From positions 62,001 through 126,000 of the forward strand of contig NZ_JAIMJB010000010.1 in the NCBI RefSeq assembly GCF_021295345.1: a stretch of DNA of 64,000 nucleotides, read 5' to 3'. The notes beneath the pieces were generated by a model. It saw only the letters and a program-made list of their open reading frames with translations, was not told where the DNA came from and made no database searches. The DNA comes from Motilimonas eburnea (GTDB taxonomy: Bacteria; Pseudomonadota; Gammaproteobacteria; Enterobacterales; CBDFNC01). A program made the position numbers and the translations under genes. Positions 9,733 through 56,391 of this stretch are shown here, one piece after another (position 1 is the first letter of the stretch; every line of letters begins with the position of its first letter).

Positions 9733-9740
9733 TTAGATTT

Positions 9741-10094
<354 letters not shown>

Positions 10095-10103
10095 AGGGCG
10101 CGG

Positions 10104-21910: not shown

Positions 21911-22176
21911 TAGGGCCTGTTTATCTTTGGAGGTTAATTTTTGTTCGAGATAAAAGCGTTTTGGGCAAGGCGAGCAGTGTGTAGCTTAGCACTCTAAGTG
22001 AATACTGCTCAACGACGAACAAAACGCTTTTAGCCGAATCCGTAGGACAGCGTTTGTTGGTCATTTCTACTGCGTTAGCGCCTTTTTGCATAGTTGACTA
22101 TGCTACAAAGTCTCTGCCTTGTATAAATACCCAACAAATCGCTGCAAAAACAAGCTCAAAAGGTCAACAGGCCCTA
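21911..22176 (+). mobile_element. MITE-like element, copy 1
   Basis: Non-coding 266-bp element nearly identical over most of its length to 51435-51729. Ends are inverted repeats: left TAGGGCCTGTTTATCTTT, right (reverse complement) TAGGGCCTGTTGACCTTT. The outer TA on each side may be a TA target duplication, as made by IS630/Tc1-type transposases. Inside are two hairpin blocks: AAAAGCGTTTTG (21952-21963) with CAAAACGCTTTT (22020-22031), enclosing GAGCAGT/ACTGCTC; and CAGCGTTTGTTGG (22048-22060) with CCAACAAATCGCTG (22131-22144), enclosing the palindrome GCATAGTTGACTATGC (22088-22103). It encodes no transposase, so movement would need one in trans. It sits 3 bases after the zapG stop. Confidence 0.85.
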
Positions 22177-51434: not shown

Positions 51435-51729
51435 TAGGGCCTGTTTATCTTTGGTGGTAAATTTTTGTTCGAGTGGGAGACACCCTGTCTAAAAGCGTTT
51501 TGGGCAAGGCGAGCAGTGTGTAGCTTAGCATTCTAAGTAAATACTGCTCAACAACGAACAGAATGCTTACGCCCGAAGGGCTTTAGCCGAATCCAGAGGA
51601 CAGCGTTTGTTGGTCATTTCTACTGCGTTAGCGCCTTTTTGCATAGTTGACTATGCTACAAAGTCTCTGCCTAGTATAAATACCCAACAAATCGCTGCAA
51701 AAACAAGCCCAAAAGGTAAACAGGCCCTA
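51435..51729 (+). mobile_element. MITE-like element, copy 2
   Basis: 295-bp non-coding element in the same orientation as the copy at 21911-22176. Terminal inverted repeats are TAGGGCCTGTTTATCTTT on the left and, as reverse complement, TAGGGCCTGTTTACCTTT on the right. It differs mainly by two small insertions, each itself a tiny hairpin: AGACA-CCC-TGTCT (51478-51490) in the left arm and GCCC-GAA-GGGC (51571-51581) in the right arm. The GCATAGTTGACTATGC palindrome and the CAGCGTTTGTTGG / CCAACAAATCGCTG arms are kept. Its last three bases, CTA, are the TAG stop of mshQ on the minus strand. No transposase is encoded. Confidence 0.85.
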
Positions 51730-54700
51730 GTTATTGACCTCTAATCGATAGATGATTCGGTCATTACCTCGGAATAAACCAAACTCCACCTCACCAACAG
51801 GACAATCATCGACTCGGGCCGTATTGGCACCACCAGACGCGCTGATCATTTGCTCGTAACATTCACTGTAACCACCTTGCCAAGTGCCACAAAGATTAGC
51901 TATTTGGCCCGAATCATCCCAATCAAATCGAAGCCAACATAAATTAGCCCCGCTCGAAGGGTTCAGATCAAGGGCATAACTAAAGCGCCCCGTTTGGTTA
52001 GGCGCACCAAATTGTAAGGTAATTTGCCCAGCCACCGCGCGAGCATTAACCAGATCGATAGCGCTGCTTCCTGTGCCAATGGGTATGGGTGATTCTTTCC
52101 CCCCCAAATTTAATACACCATCCTTGTTTGAATCCACCGCCCAGTTAAACTCAGCAATCGGGGCAAGGGCCGTGGGGTTATAACTGACGCTGCTACAACT
52201 ATCGTCAGGGTTAATCATAAACTGCCCCTCTTCAAAACGTTCAACAGCGAGGGGAACCCTGAGCGATGCTAACTCACTGCCATGGCGAGAAGGGCTGACT
52301 AAACGGCCATAATACAGATTGCCCAGACCAGCCACAGTACACACATCTGTGCCGCCATCGATGCAAGGCGTAGTGGCATCTTGTTGTAGCTTTTCCCCAT
52401 CTTTCCCGATGATCTGTAATTGCAACAGGGCTTCAGTAGGCTGGTTTTTAATAAATGGGCCATCTACGCCATGGGGGTTGAGTTTTGCTGCGCCAATAGG
52501 CAAGGCAGACAGGGTAAACTCCCCTAATTGCCAATCAAAAGAATGGGCATCCATCATCAGTCGAGTACTGCCGTCACCTTGGCTCAGCTCACCCGCACTG
52601 TTAGCCAACGACCATTGCCATAATTGATTTGTCTCATCGGCCGTCGGGTAACCTTTGGCCGTATCGTAATTGGTCACCTTAGCGGGAGCATCCCCCTGAT
52701 AAAAAGCAGCCAAGGTCAGATCCAAAGAAATGGCCTGCTGATCTAAATAACTAAAGCCACCCACAGCACAAGCTGGTAAGGTCAAGGCTGTTTGTGCTTG
52801 TAAGTAGGCCGGATAAAAGCGCCCGATCTCATGCTCGGCTAAGGCAATCGGCGTCGCACTTTGCGCAACCGGATCATTGAGGTATTCACTGGCAGCGACC
52901 ATCAATCGCAGTTGCCCCACCTCGTTCCAAGCAAGGTGCTTGATGCTGGCAACGCCCTGCTCGGCTGGCTGCATGTTATAAGGGGTGGCCGTGACATTAT
53001 TCCCCGCTAATGTCACCACGCCCAGATTAGCACTGCTAGGTAAGGTGACACTGTGACTAAGATTGAGGGGGTGATAAAAGCTGGCGGTGACTGGGTTAGT
53101 CAAGCAATGACCGTTAGGATCATCACTGCAATCCATTAAGGCTTCGACCTCAAGATCAAAGGTGTCAAAGTCGCGCTGAGTGTCAAAGTCTATGCCCGCG
53201 CGAGGTAAGGCTGCGCGAATAAAGCCTGCATCAGCTCCCACCCCGTTATTCACCGCGGTTTGGCCTGTGCCATCGCGCAAGTAACCCAATACCGAACTAG
53301 TGCGCACATTTAACGTCTTAGGGCTAAAGGTGAATAATTGGCTACCTTGCACAATTTCATCATCTTCGCCAATGGGCGGTGCACCTATGCCAACATCATC
53401 ACGGGCAGATAATAAAATACGCCCCGCATCAGGATAATTAACATTAATGCTTTCACTGACGCCCGCATTAAACACGATCGTTTGCTCGATGGCATTTTGC
53501 GCGTTTTTGCCAATACTGGCTTGATTAACCTCCACATCACGCCCGGCTACCACCGCTGGCGCATCATAACTCGACCAAAATTTCAGGGTTTGCTCGCCTG
53601 TATAAGCGGTGATCACGCCACAATTTCCCGTCGTGGCATCTTTTCCGATCGCAGTTAAGGTGACACTAAAGGGTTTATTGCTGTAATGATATTGCCCTGC
53701 TCCTACTCCGCTGTTATCCACTGGCGCTATGCTAAAACCATAAGGACGAAAGGTGATGTCTGTGGTAGCCGAGGTGCCATTATCATTGTTTTGCGCCAAA
53801 ATAGTGACTAAGCCCGCCTGTTCGTGAAACAAACTTAACTCCACTTCACCATTATCTGCACTGACAAACTGATAACTCGCTAAGCCATTATCTAAGGTGG
53901 GGTTAGGCGAAAGGGTACCATTACCATTGACTAGCCCCCAACGGCCAATGCCTGAGCTGGTAGAAAGCTGAACCAAACCCGTGTAGAGCGTATCTAAACG
54001 GCCATCTTTTAACGCGCGCAGCTTGATGCTATGAGCTTCGCAAGTCAGGGCATCAACCTCTGCGATCCACTCCAAACCATCACGCACCGTCTGACTCTGA
54101 TTGGTAATGGCGAAGTAGCTTAGCTGCTCTTGAAAATGCTGACGTTCGGGATCGCGGTATTGATCCTCATCAACAGCAACGCCAAATTGACTGCGGCTAA
54201 TATTACAGCGCCTTGCCCAGCCACCATCACCACCGTTACGCCCCCGTTTATTGGCTATCAATAATGGCGGAGTAACGTAGTCTTGTTGTAAGTCGTTAAG
54301 GGTTTGACACTGCTGAGACACATTCAAGGTATTTGCACCAGAGTCATGGTTACGGGCCACACCAAACTCGTATCGAATTTCTTCACTACCTTGGGTAAAG
54401 CGACTTGCCCCGATAGGCCCTGCCAACCAATTAACGGTTTCAGGGGTAAGGCTATCTAAGCTTGTGCCCGCTGGCACACAAGTCCCTGAGACGCCGCTTA
54501 CGTCGTAAACTTCTGATGCTTCAAGAGCAACATCAAACGCGGTTAGTGGATCGCTAGATGACACTTGCCCTGTAGCCGTTAGCCAACAGTTGTTATTAAA
54601 GCTGGCTCGCTGTAACAGCACACCCGGAGTCTGACTAAAGCCGGCTGCACTTAAATCTAGGCTTTGCCAGGTGCCACTTTGCTGGCCACGTTGGAAAGCG

Positions 54701-56391
54701 GAAGTAGCCAGACTACCCGCATAGAGTTTTTGGCCATCAGGCAACTCGGTCACACCAGGTAACAAGGCCACATAATCCACATTTGGCATAGGTTTAGCCA
54801 CCCCCCCAAAATTATTTGGCGGGCTAATTTGCTCCACGCTAAAGCCGGTCTCACTGACGTTGAGTACCCGCACCGAAGCCGGGCCATCGGCATCGGGATC
54901 ACCAGGATCTAAATTTGGCATCACAAACACTAAGGGCACATCGCTAAAAGGCTGCTCAAAGGTGACCGCACCGAGCGCCGTTTGGCCGTACTGAAACTCA
55001 TTTTGCGTGGGCGTGACACCATTGCGACACATGCCATTAAAATCGGTTTTCGCAATGGCATCGGGGCGATAGTTGACCGTGCCGTTATTGGTTATTTGCC
55101 CTGCGGCAGTAATAGCACCATTAACCACCGCGCCAGGCGCGATACTAATGGTGCCTTCGGCGAAGATAAACCCATTCACTGTGGTATTGGCACCAATCTC
55201 GACATTAGCCTTGGTGGCAATCAATAAGTGCTCTGTCAAGTTGGAATCATTGAGCACAATCGTGCCGCCACTGGCAAAGGTCGAAAAGTTACTGTTAAAC
55301 AGCATGCGGGTGGTGGCGCTGTTATTACTGAGGCGAAAGCTGTCGTTAGCAAACTGAACAAAGCCATCAATATAGAAATAATCCCGCGCTGCTAAGGTCT
55401 CATCGCCAGCGCCGGTTAAGCGCTGATATTGACCATCGGAGCCATCATTGGGTGGCATATATAAAAGATCGCTGCTGGTCGCATTAACAGGGCCATTGAA
55501 TACGTCTTCACAAAGGGGCAAGGTAGAGACGCGACTGACTAAGTCCAGCACGATATCATCCCAAGAGATATCGCGACCAAAACGTTCATTGATGCGTAAG
55601 GTGTAAGTGCCCGCGGCTAAATCTTTCGCCGCCAAGGTGGGGTTTTCAACAATGAAGTCGCCCTCGCCACCAATAAAACCGATGGAGTTAATGGTATTGT
55701 CCGGCTCAATTAACAGCAGCTCGGCTTGGGTAGCCGGGTTACGTACGTTAAACATTTTTAGGCGATTAAAGTTACTTACTGTTTGGAGGGTAAAGGTCAA
55801 ATCGAGCGGATTGGCCACGCCAGCATTGGGAAATAAACTCGAACCTGTATAGCCATCATTATTATTGGTGGGACCGATATGTTGACGCTCAATAAATGCG
55901 ATATCGTCAGAAACCGCGCCGATTAACTCGATATCGTTAAAAGTGAGTAGATCCCACGAGTTACAATTACGCTGAAATTCACTGCCCCGCCCCTGCAAAC
56001 ACTGGCCCCAAGCAAATAGCTGGTAGTCGCCAGCAACCAGATTAAGATTACTGACATTAAAAACCCCGGAGCCGGGAGTGGCGAGCCCGCGATAAAGTTG
56101 ATTGCCATTGTTATCCCAAATGACCAAAACGGGTGAGGTGACGGTGGTATTCACATTGCTGAGCCGAATTTGAGTCAGGGTGGAGTCTTCGGTGATTTGA
56201 AAGTGGATGGGATAAATGGGCTGATAAACAGGTGAAGGCCCCCCGACACTCTGGGTGATCGCCACACCTGGCGGGATCGAATCATTATCTCCTCCGATCC
56301 TCATGCTTCCGAACAAGGTGGTATCGGCCCAACTGGGTAAGGATAAAGCAATGCCAAGGAATAACCCAACCCAGTAAAACAAACGACTCAT
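51727..56391 (-). CDS. mshQ: MshQ, large MSHA pilus-associated exported protein
   Basis: Last gene of the MSHA cluster, 1554 residues, with a signal peptide ending SWA near residue 22. The N-terminal half is beta-rich; at about residues 380-445 there is a bactofilin-like stretch (VEIGANTTVNGFIFAEGTIS, then PGAVVNGAITAAGQITNNGT). The C-terminal half (from about 900) looks like the DUF6701 region of MshQ proteins, including PVDNSGVGAGQYHYSNKPF. Cysteine pairs suggest disulfides. The function is unknown in the literature I recall; a pilus-tip or surface role is plausible. The stop codon TAG is formed by the end of the adjacent MITE-like element. Confidence 0.88.
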   Translation of the reverse strand: MSRLFYWVGLFLGIALSLPSWADTTLFGSMRIGGDNDSIPPGVAITQSVGGPSPVYQPIYPIHFQITEDSTLTQIRLSNVNTTVTSPVLVIWDNNGNQLYRGLATPGSGVFNVSNLNLVAGDYQLFAWGQCLQGRGSEFQRNCNSWDLLTFNDIELIGAVSDDIAFIERQHIGPTNNNDGYTGSSLFPNAGVANPLDLTFTLQTVSNFNRLKMFNVRNPATQAELLLIEPDNTINSIGFIGGEGDFIVENPTLAAKDLAAGTYTLRINERFGRDISWDDIVLDLVSRVSTLPLCEDVFNGPVNATSSDLLYMPPNDGSDGQYQRLTGAGDETLAARDYFYIDGFVQFANDSFRLSNNSATTRMLFNSNFSTFASGGTIVLNDSNLTEHLLIATKANVEIGANTTVNGFIFAEGTISIAPGAVVNGAITAAGQITNNGTVNYRPDAIAKTDFNGMCRNGVTPTQNEFQYGQTALGAVTFEQPFSDVPLVFVMPNLDPGDPDADGPASVRVLNVSETGFSVEQISPPNNFGGVAKPMPNVDYVALLPGVTELPDGQKLYAGSLATSAFQRGQQSGTWQSLDLSAAGFSQTPGVLLQRASFNNNCWLTATGQVSSSDPLTAFDVALEASEVYDVSGVSGTCVPAGTSLDSLTPETVNWLAGPIGASRFTQGSEEIRYEFGVARNHDSGANTLNVSQQCQTLNDLQQDYVTPPLLIANKRGRNGGDGGWARRCNISRSQFGVAVDEDQYRDPERQHFQEQLSYFAITNQSQTVRDGLEWIAEVDALTCEAHSIKLRALKDGRLDTLYTGLVQLSTSSGIGRWGLVNGNGTLSPNPTLDNGLASYQFVSADNGEVELSLFHEQAGLVTILAQNNDNGTSATTDITFRPYGFSIAPVDNSGVGAGQYHYSNKPFSVTLTAIGKDATTGNCGVITAYTGEQTLKFWSSYDAPAVVAGRDVEVNQASIGKNAQNAIEQTIVFNAGVSESINVNYPDAGRILLSARDDVGIGAPPIGEDDEIVQGSQLFTFSPKTLNVRTSSVLGYLRDGTGQTAVNNGVGADAGFIRAALPRAGIDFDTQRDFDTFDLEVEALMDCSDDPNGHCLTNPVTASFYHPLNLSHSVTLPSSANLGVVTLAGNNVTATPYNMQPAEQGVASIKHLAWNEVGQLRLMVAASEYLNDPVAQSATPIALAEHEIGRFYPAYLQAQTALTLPACAVGGFSYLDQQAISLDLTLAAFYQGDAPAKVTNYDTAKGYPTADETNQLWQWSLANSAGELSQGDGSTRLMMDAHSFDWQLGEFTLSALPIGAAKLNPHGVDGPFIKNQPTEALLQLQIIGKDGEKLQQDATTPCIDGGTDVCTVAGLGNLYYGRLVSPSRHGSELASLRVPLAVERFEEGQFMINPDDSCSSVSYNPTALAPIAEFNWAVDSNKDGVLNLGGKESPIPIGTGSSAIDLVNARAVAGQITLQFGAPNQTGRFSYALDLNPSSGANLCWLRFDWDDSGQIANLCGTWQGGYSECYEQMISASGGANTARVDDCPVGEVEFGLFRGNDRIIYRLEVNN

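Follow-up and report, generated by a model that had tools for sequence, protein, structure and literature searches.

The two non-coding elements of the window, by which is meant the whole 64,000-nucleotide stretch of Motilimonas eburnea DNA that was analysed, belong to a dispersed family of MITEs. The reading favoured here, with a probability of roughly 0.9, is that this family is mobilised in trans by an ISSod6-like transposase of the IS5 family, inserts at a YTAR target, has ends that keep stop codons in place, and carries hairpins that change in paired fashion. An abundant repeat of marine gammaproteobacteria would thereby be given a transposase family, and would represent a case of a MITE whose folded core changes in paired fashion across genera. 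The combination of a YTAR target with TAG ends would also provide a simple reason for harmless residence on gene ends.

Two MITE copies in the window

The features of the two copies, and of the ORF that adjoins the second, are as follows.

21911..22176, plus strand: MITE copy 1, 266 bp with the TA of each end counted in
21911..21928, plus strand: copy 1 left inverted end
21951..22032, plus strand: copy 1 left hairpin, mapped by hand from columns 68-153 of alignment A2
22039..22047, plus strand: copy 1 mini-hairpin separating the two hairpins
22048..22144, plus strand: copy 1 right hairpin, an inverted relative of the left hairpin
22159..22176, minus strand: copy 1 right inverted end
51435..51729, plus strand: MITE copy 2, 295 bp
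51435..51452, plus strand: copy 2 left inverted end
51490..51585, plus strand: copy 2 left hairpin, including a 14-bp insert, mapped by hand
51601..51697, plus strand: copy 2 right hairpin, mapped by hand
51712..51729, minus strand: copy 2 right inverted end, whose terminal TAG serves as stop codon for the 1554-aa ORF
51727..56391, minus strand: 1554-aa ORF, with the stop codon at 51727-51729 provided by copy 2

The initial annotation had paired these elements by eye, and its coordinates are exact. The copies share 86% identity over their aligned length, copy 2 being longer than copy 1 by inserts of 15 and 14 bp. The inverted ends, first put at about 19 bp, measure approximately 18 bp (TAGGGCCTGTTKAYCTTT), with a few mismatches between the two ends within a copy. 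When up to three mismatches are allowed, the window genome contains 59 + 63 occurrences of this end motif and 5 + 2 of the motif read backwards, which excludes chance. As had been noted from the sequence, no open frame spans either element; the copies are short, devoid of a transposase gene and bounded by inverted ends, as is characteristic of MITEs. Copy 1 begins 3 bases past the stop codon of one ORF, with the next ORF lying 151 bases beyond its end. It is absent from three genomes of the same genus, in which the flanks of the site have diverged too far to give an empty site that is exact to the base.

The presence of merely two copies in one window could also result from segmental duplication of an ordinary intergenic sequence, for which homology reaching past the inverted ends had been proposed as the sign. 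The similarity between copies 1 and 2 stops at the inverted ends, which argues against such a duplication, as do the 41 copies with differing flanks that are dispersed in the window genome, and this origin is scarcely credible.

Copy number and distribution

The guess that two copies in one window reflect a genome-wide family proved right. A search of the window genome (4.59 Mb in 71 contigs) listed 40 full-size copies of 78-100% identity, and one further full-size copy, at C44:206829-207136, was recovered through the exact end motif, for a total of at least 41. Among the 40 of the 41 copies that were compared, 18 are 266 bp long and the others are 279-308 bp, the steps in length corresponding to small inserts. 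No two of the 40 are identical, and the identity between nearest neighbours is 93.6-98.7%. Six unpaired exact end motifs of the window genome were examined, and inspection of the ORF lists by eye revealed no transposase-like ORF adjacent to them; one of the six (C8:64378) belongs to a half element, and another to a 151-bp short form (C24:631-781).

Relatives of the element are found in other genera. A broader sample of the order gave matches in 79 of 295 genomes (23 of 99 genera), and a narrower set in 16 of 59 genomes (11 of 40 genera), the window genome being included in both counts. Twelve of the 72,556 records in a plasmid collection also match, with six from Pseudoalteromonas, four from Vibrio and two from Catenovulum; a search of a phage collection with the element gave no match. 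Removal of duplicates left 93 of 106 intervals, and one of the 93, L181 (101 bp), arose from false pairing of ends within a full copy. Very short forms consist of barely more than the two inverted ends, for instance L071:3034-3087 (54 bp) and L066:2946-3019 (74 bp). Larger forms with extra internal segments are present in genome G057 (L083:2055-2435, 381 bp, and L083:10322-10644, 323 bp).

A probable IS5-family partner in trans

The TA at the outer edges of the elements had suggested mobilisation by a transposase of the IS630/Tc1 type. The TA target duplication stands, but the IS630 partner does not, as matching ends occur on IS5-family elements. The IS630 domain PF13358 (DDE_3) was found in three of 12 genomes, and none of its six matches lies between these ends; it was not found in the window genome. 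An IS630 partner was therefore rejected, and an IS630/Tc1-type MITE, with the TA duplication as the point in its favour, is considered very improbable.

The search for an autonomous insertion sequence with the same termini, proposed in the initial annotation, did yield a candidate partner, in the same-genus genome G002 and in other genomes. The domain PF13340 (IS5 type) was found in two of 12 genomes, the window genome not being among them, and both PF13340 loci of G002 are flanked by the MITE ends and TA, 888 bp apart. These represent two copies of an intact IS5-family element that is related to ISSod6; 879 of 888 bases are identical, and each copy encodes a single ORF of 253 aa. The transposase is assigned to the IS5 family by NCBIfam (NF033580, 267.1 bits against a cut-off of 110), and to PF13340 and PF01609 by Pfam, above cut-off. 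Related transposase loci in named genomes, 45 of 49 of which were scanned for ends (L138, L140, L141 and L143 being left out), carry the MITE ends on both sides in 29 of 45 cases and on one side in 15. The sole locus without ends on either side is 39% identical, and is from the Oscillospiraceae. Copies of ISSod6 and ISSpu10 bear the same 18-bp ends. An ISSod6-like IS5-family transposase would thus move the MITE in trans by acting on the common TAGGGNNTGTTGATCTTT ends, as is suggested by their sequence identity. The partner presumably belongs to the IS427 subgroup of IS5, a subgroup that duplicates TA.

Profile and sequence searches of the contigs found no relative of the transposase in the window genome, and the copies of that genome therefore look stranded. 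Among the 16 MITE-bearing genomes of the 59-genome set, a transposase match was present in five and was intact only in G002. Two genomes, G019 and G024, have intact transposase relatives and no MITE match. The MITE and an intact transposase are thus seldom found together, which weighs against the favoured reading and suggests that in many cases the MITE persists after its partner is lost or moves separately from it. Since no transposase relative was found in the window genome, and there are no identical copies among the 40 compared, the family is probably dormant there.

Two other arrangements of the insertion sequences were observed. At a contig end of Motilimonas sp. E26 (L142, positions 1-170), two IS copies are joined 3' end to 5' end across one shared TA, the second copy being internally deleted, in what is a tandem or stacked insertion. 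In the case of a Vibrio cholerae IncC plasmid (L219, NZ_OW443149.1), resistance genes annotated as msr(E) and mph(A) flank a copy of ISSpu10 that has these same ends.

Relation to known elements

The MITE shares with insertion sequences of the ISSod6/ISSpu10 type the same 18-bp ends, together with the TA flanks and the YTAR target seen in related IS. In contrast to the MITE, which has no ORF, those elements are approximately 880-890 bp and carry a transposase ORF, and the two hairpins of the MITE were not seen in them. Inward of the ends, the IS and the MITE show loose similarity that extends only to about position 40; the two hairpins are thus not explained as remains of the IS.

ERIC elements target TA. 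As described in the available part of one account, the ERIC/IRU of enterobacteria is a small, non-coding, MITE-like intergenic repeat of 127 bp (PMC2229807). The element described here is likewise small, non-coding, MITE-like and situated between genes, but is set apart from ERIC by its size (266-308 bp) and its ends, and also differs in having two hairpins and an IS5-family partner. The available part of a second account gives inverted ends, target duplication, stable stem-loops and IS parentage as the properties of prokaryotic MITEs (PMC10969869), and all of these are present in this family.

In the literature searched, of which subscription journals were partly covered, no paper recognisably on this element was found, and an earlier account in a survey of mobile elements in Shewanella oneidensis is possible. 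Matches to the end motif in full-text literature appear unrelated, as judged by title, and ISSod6 was found in genome papers only, as judged by listing. The main text of a paper on Motilimonas genomics (PMC13182010) has no mention of an insertion sequence, a transposase, miniature elements or IS5.

Target site and empty sites

A YTAR target is found at 27 of 27 IS (L103 and L139 being omitted from the 29 two-ended loci). Among MITE intervals that both start and end in TA, it is found at 40 of 43 from other genomes (a set that still includes the spurious L181) and at 26 of 38 from the window genome. The corresponding share of the 4813 TA sites in window-genome flanks is 33%. Empty sites in close relatives, a check suggested at the outset, could be read in a pair of Pseudoalteromonas replicons, NC201 and P. 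piscicida 2515, that are 98.3% alike over one 4.3-kb stretch. Of 13 copies examined in NC201, three are shared with 2515 and ten have an empty counterpart. Exactly one TA is restored in five of the ten, the other five showing small local changes, a point against the reading favoured here; all ten empty sites as printed conform to YTAR. For a related Pseudoalteromonas member, these empty sites show that the element inserts into the TA of YTAR and duplicates the TA in doing so. For the window genome itself, the empty-site evidence comes from the gene side of copy 2.

With the Vibrio replicons, the search for an empty site gave no shared flank in the case of L214, and for L215 all three records with the full site carry the element. 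A comparison of L240 with L258 (NC201 versus 2515) shows that an older short element has received a 317-bp element at its terminal TA, creating two stacked elements.

Replacement of stop codons

Both ends of the element begin with TAG, and the TAR of the target covers two stop codons, TAA and TAG. An element that inserts at the TA of either one thus leaves a stop at the same codon. In the case of copy 2, the 1554-aa ORF ends ...RLEVNN-TAG at the element, whereas the corresponding ORF in the same-genus genomes G001 and G002 ends ...RLEVNN-TAA with the element absent; the other flank of the site has unrelated indels.

This arrangement is not confined to copy 2. The flank measures 400 bp or more on 185 element sides (81 from the window genome and 104 from other genomes). 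On 25 of these sides an ORF of at least 100 codons runs up to the element, one site being included twice, in sister genomes (L031 and L032). The stop codon is exactly the first codon of the element in 17 of the 25 (10 of 13 in the window genome and 7 of 12 in other genomes), as compared to one third expected from reading frame alone (p = 0.0004). The stop supplied is TAG in 16 cases and TAA in one, where the end is changed. Taking the element out leaves TAA or TAG as the codon in each of the 17, which is partly a consequence of target choice, since 72 of 81 elements have an R after the TA in any case. One copy, L010, supplies the stop codon to two convergent ORFs simultaneously. The excess of stop codons is read here as the result of target choice and survival, rather than active aiming. 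Surviving copies are located between genes and at gene ends, a distribution that may have been filtered by selection. Nothing on MITEs or IS5 jointly with stop codons was found in the literature searched, and the terms 'stop codon' and 'compensatory' are absent from the main text of the review of prokaryotic MITEs (PMC10969869).

A paired two-hairpin core

The predicted fold of a single copy is a terminal stem around two long hairpins, which are separated by a mini-hairpin, in agreement with the two internal hairpin blocks initially described for each copy. An alignment of 37 chosen two-hairpin elements from 14 genomes and nine genera gave a consensus of 88 pairs which, being taken from the same alignment as was tested and so biased in its own favour, has 92.2% of cells paired, as compared to 79.4% when shuffled and 36.9-47.0% when slid. 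Changes on both sides were observed at 50 pairs and in 399 cells; shuffling gave 34.7 pairs and 110.8 cells, and sliding the partners gave 72-75 cells. The hairpin stems therefore vary in sequence yet stay paired across genera. Aligned with the reverse of the right hairpin, the left one matches it at 41-53 of 92-94 positions, exceeding the best of 30 shuffles in six of six elements, by one position only in three of them. No description of an order-wide, covarying two-hairpin MITE core was found in the literature searched.

A serious rival explanation of the paired changes, given well under even odds and yet the strongest of the alternatives, is that they arise by mutation rather than selection. 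Template switching at quasi-palindromes is known to copy one arm onto the other during replication, altering both sides at once. Consistent with such arm copying, the paired hairpin columns are no less conserved than the unpaired ones, and G-U and A-C cells are near balance (77 to 55 when collapsed by genus, p = 0.067), as would be expected if no RNA strand were selected; on the same near balance, the data do not tell RNA from DNA as the folded form. Against arm copying, internal loops survive in nine genera, with a loop pattern common to both hairpins (GGC..AG facing AAC..AG...AAA), and the length of the two-hairpin element is held near 266-269 bp in many genera.

A second alternative is that the core acts as a functional RNA or as a module of 3' ends, such as a terminator, insulator or transcript stabiliser, that is useful to the host. 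The fold is conserved, as such a module would require, and many copies lie at gene 3' ends. The neighbouring genes of 40 window-genome copies, none of which is inside a spanning ORF, are convergent in 13 cases, codirectional in 17 and divergent in five, with five left unclassified; for the 23 gene gaps of the window the corresponding numbers are four, 15 and four. Copies thus lean toward convergent pairs (13 of 35 classified copies versus 4 of 23 gaps), although the lean is not strong. ERIC elements are also reported, in the available part of the source, to affect transcript stability (PMC2229807). However, a strand bias is not clear, insertion preference and purifying selection suffice to put copies between genes, and the window gave no Rfam family at gathering score beyond RNase P, the one weaker match in three relatives being istR at 23.3 bits, under its gathering score of 45. 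A host-serving module is accordingly judged unlikely. Similarly doubtful is the more far-reaching proposal of a transposon lineage that has a selected, conserved two-hairpin module in place of a gene, replaces stop codons through its target preference and TAG-bearing ends, and spreads across the order as near-silent, portable gene 3' ends. With a MITE moved in trans as the preferred reading, the two related, inverted hairpins would most likely serve transposition, or tolerance of the element as a transcript 3' end.

The RNase P match in the window lies at 9739-10095 on the minus strand, and corresponds to a bacterial class A RNase P RNA (324.7 bits).
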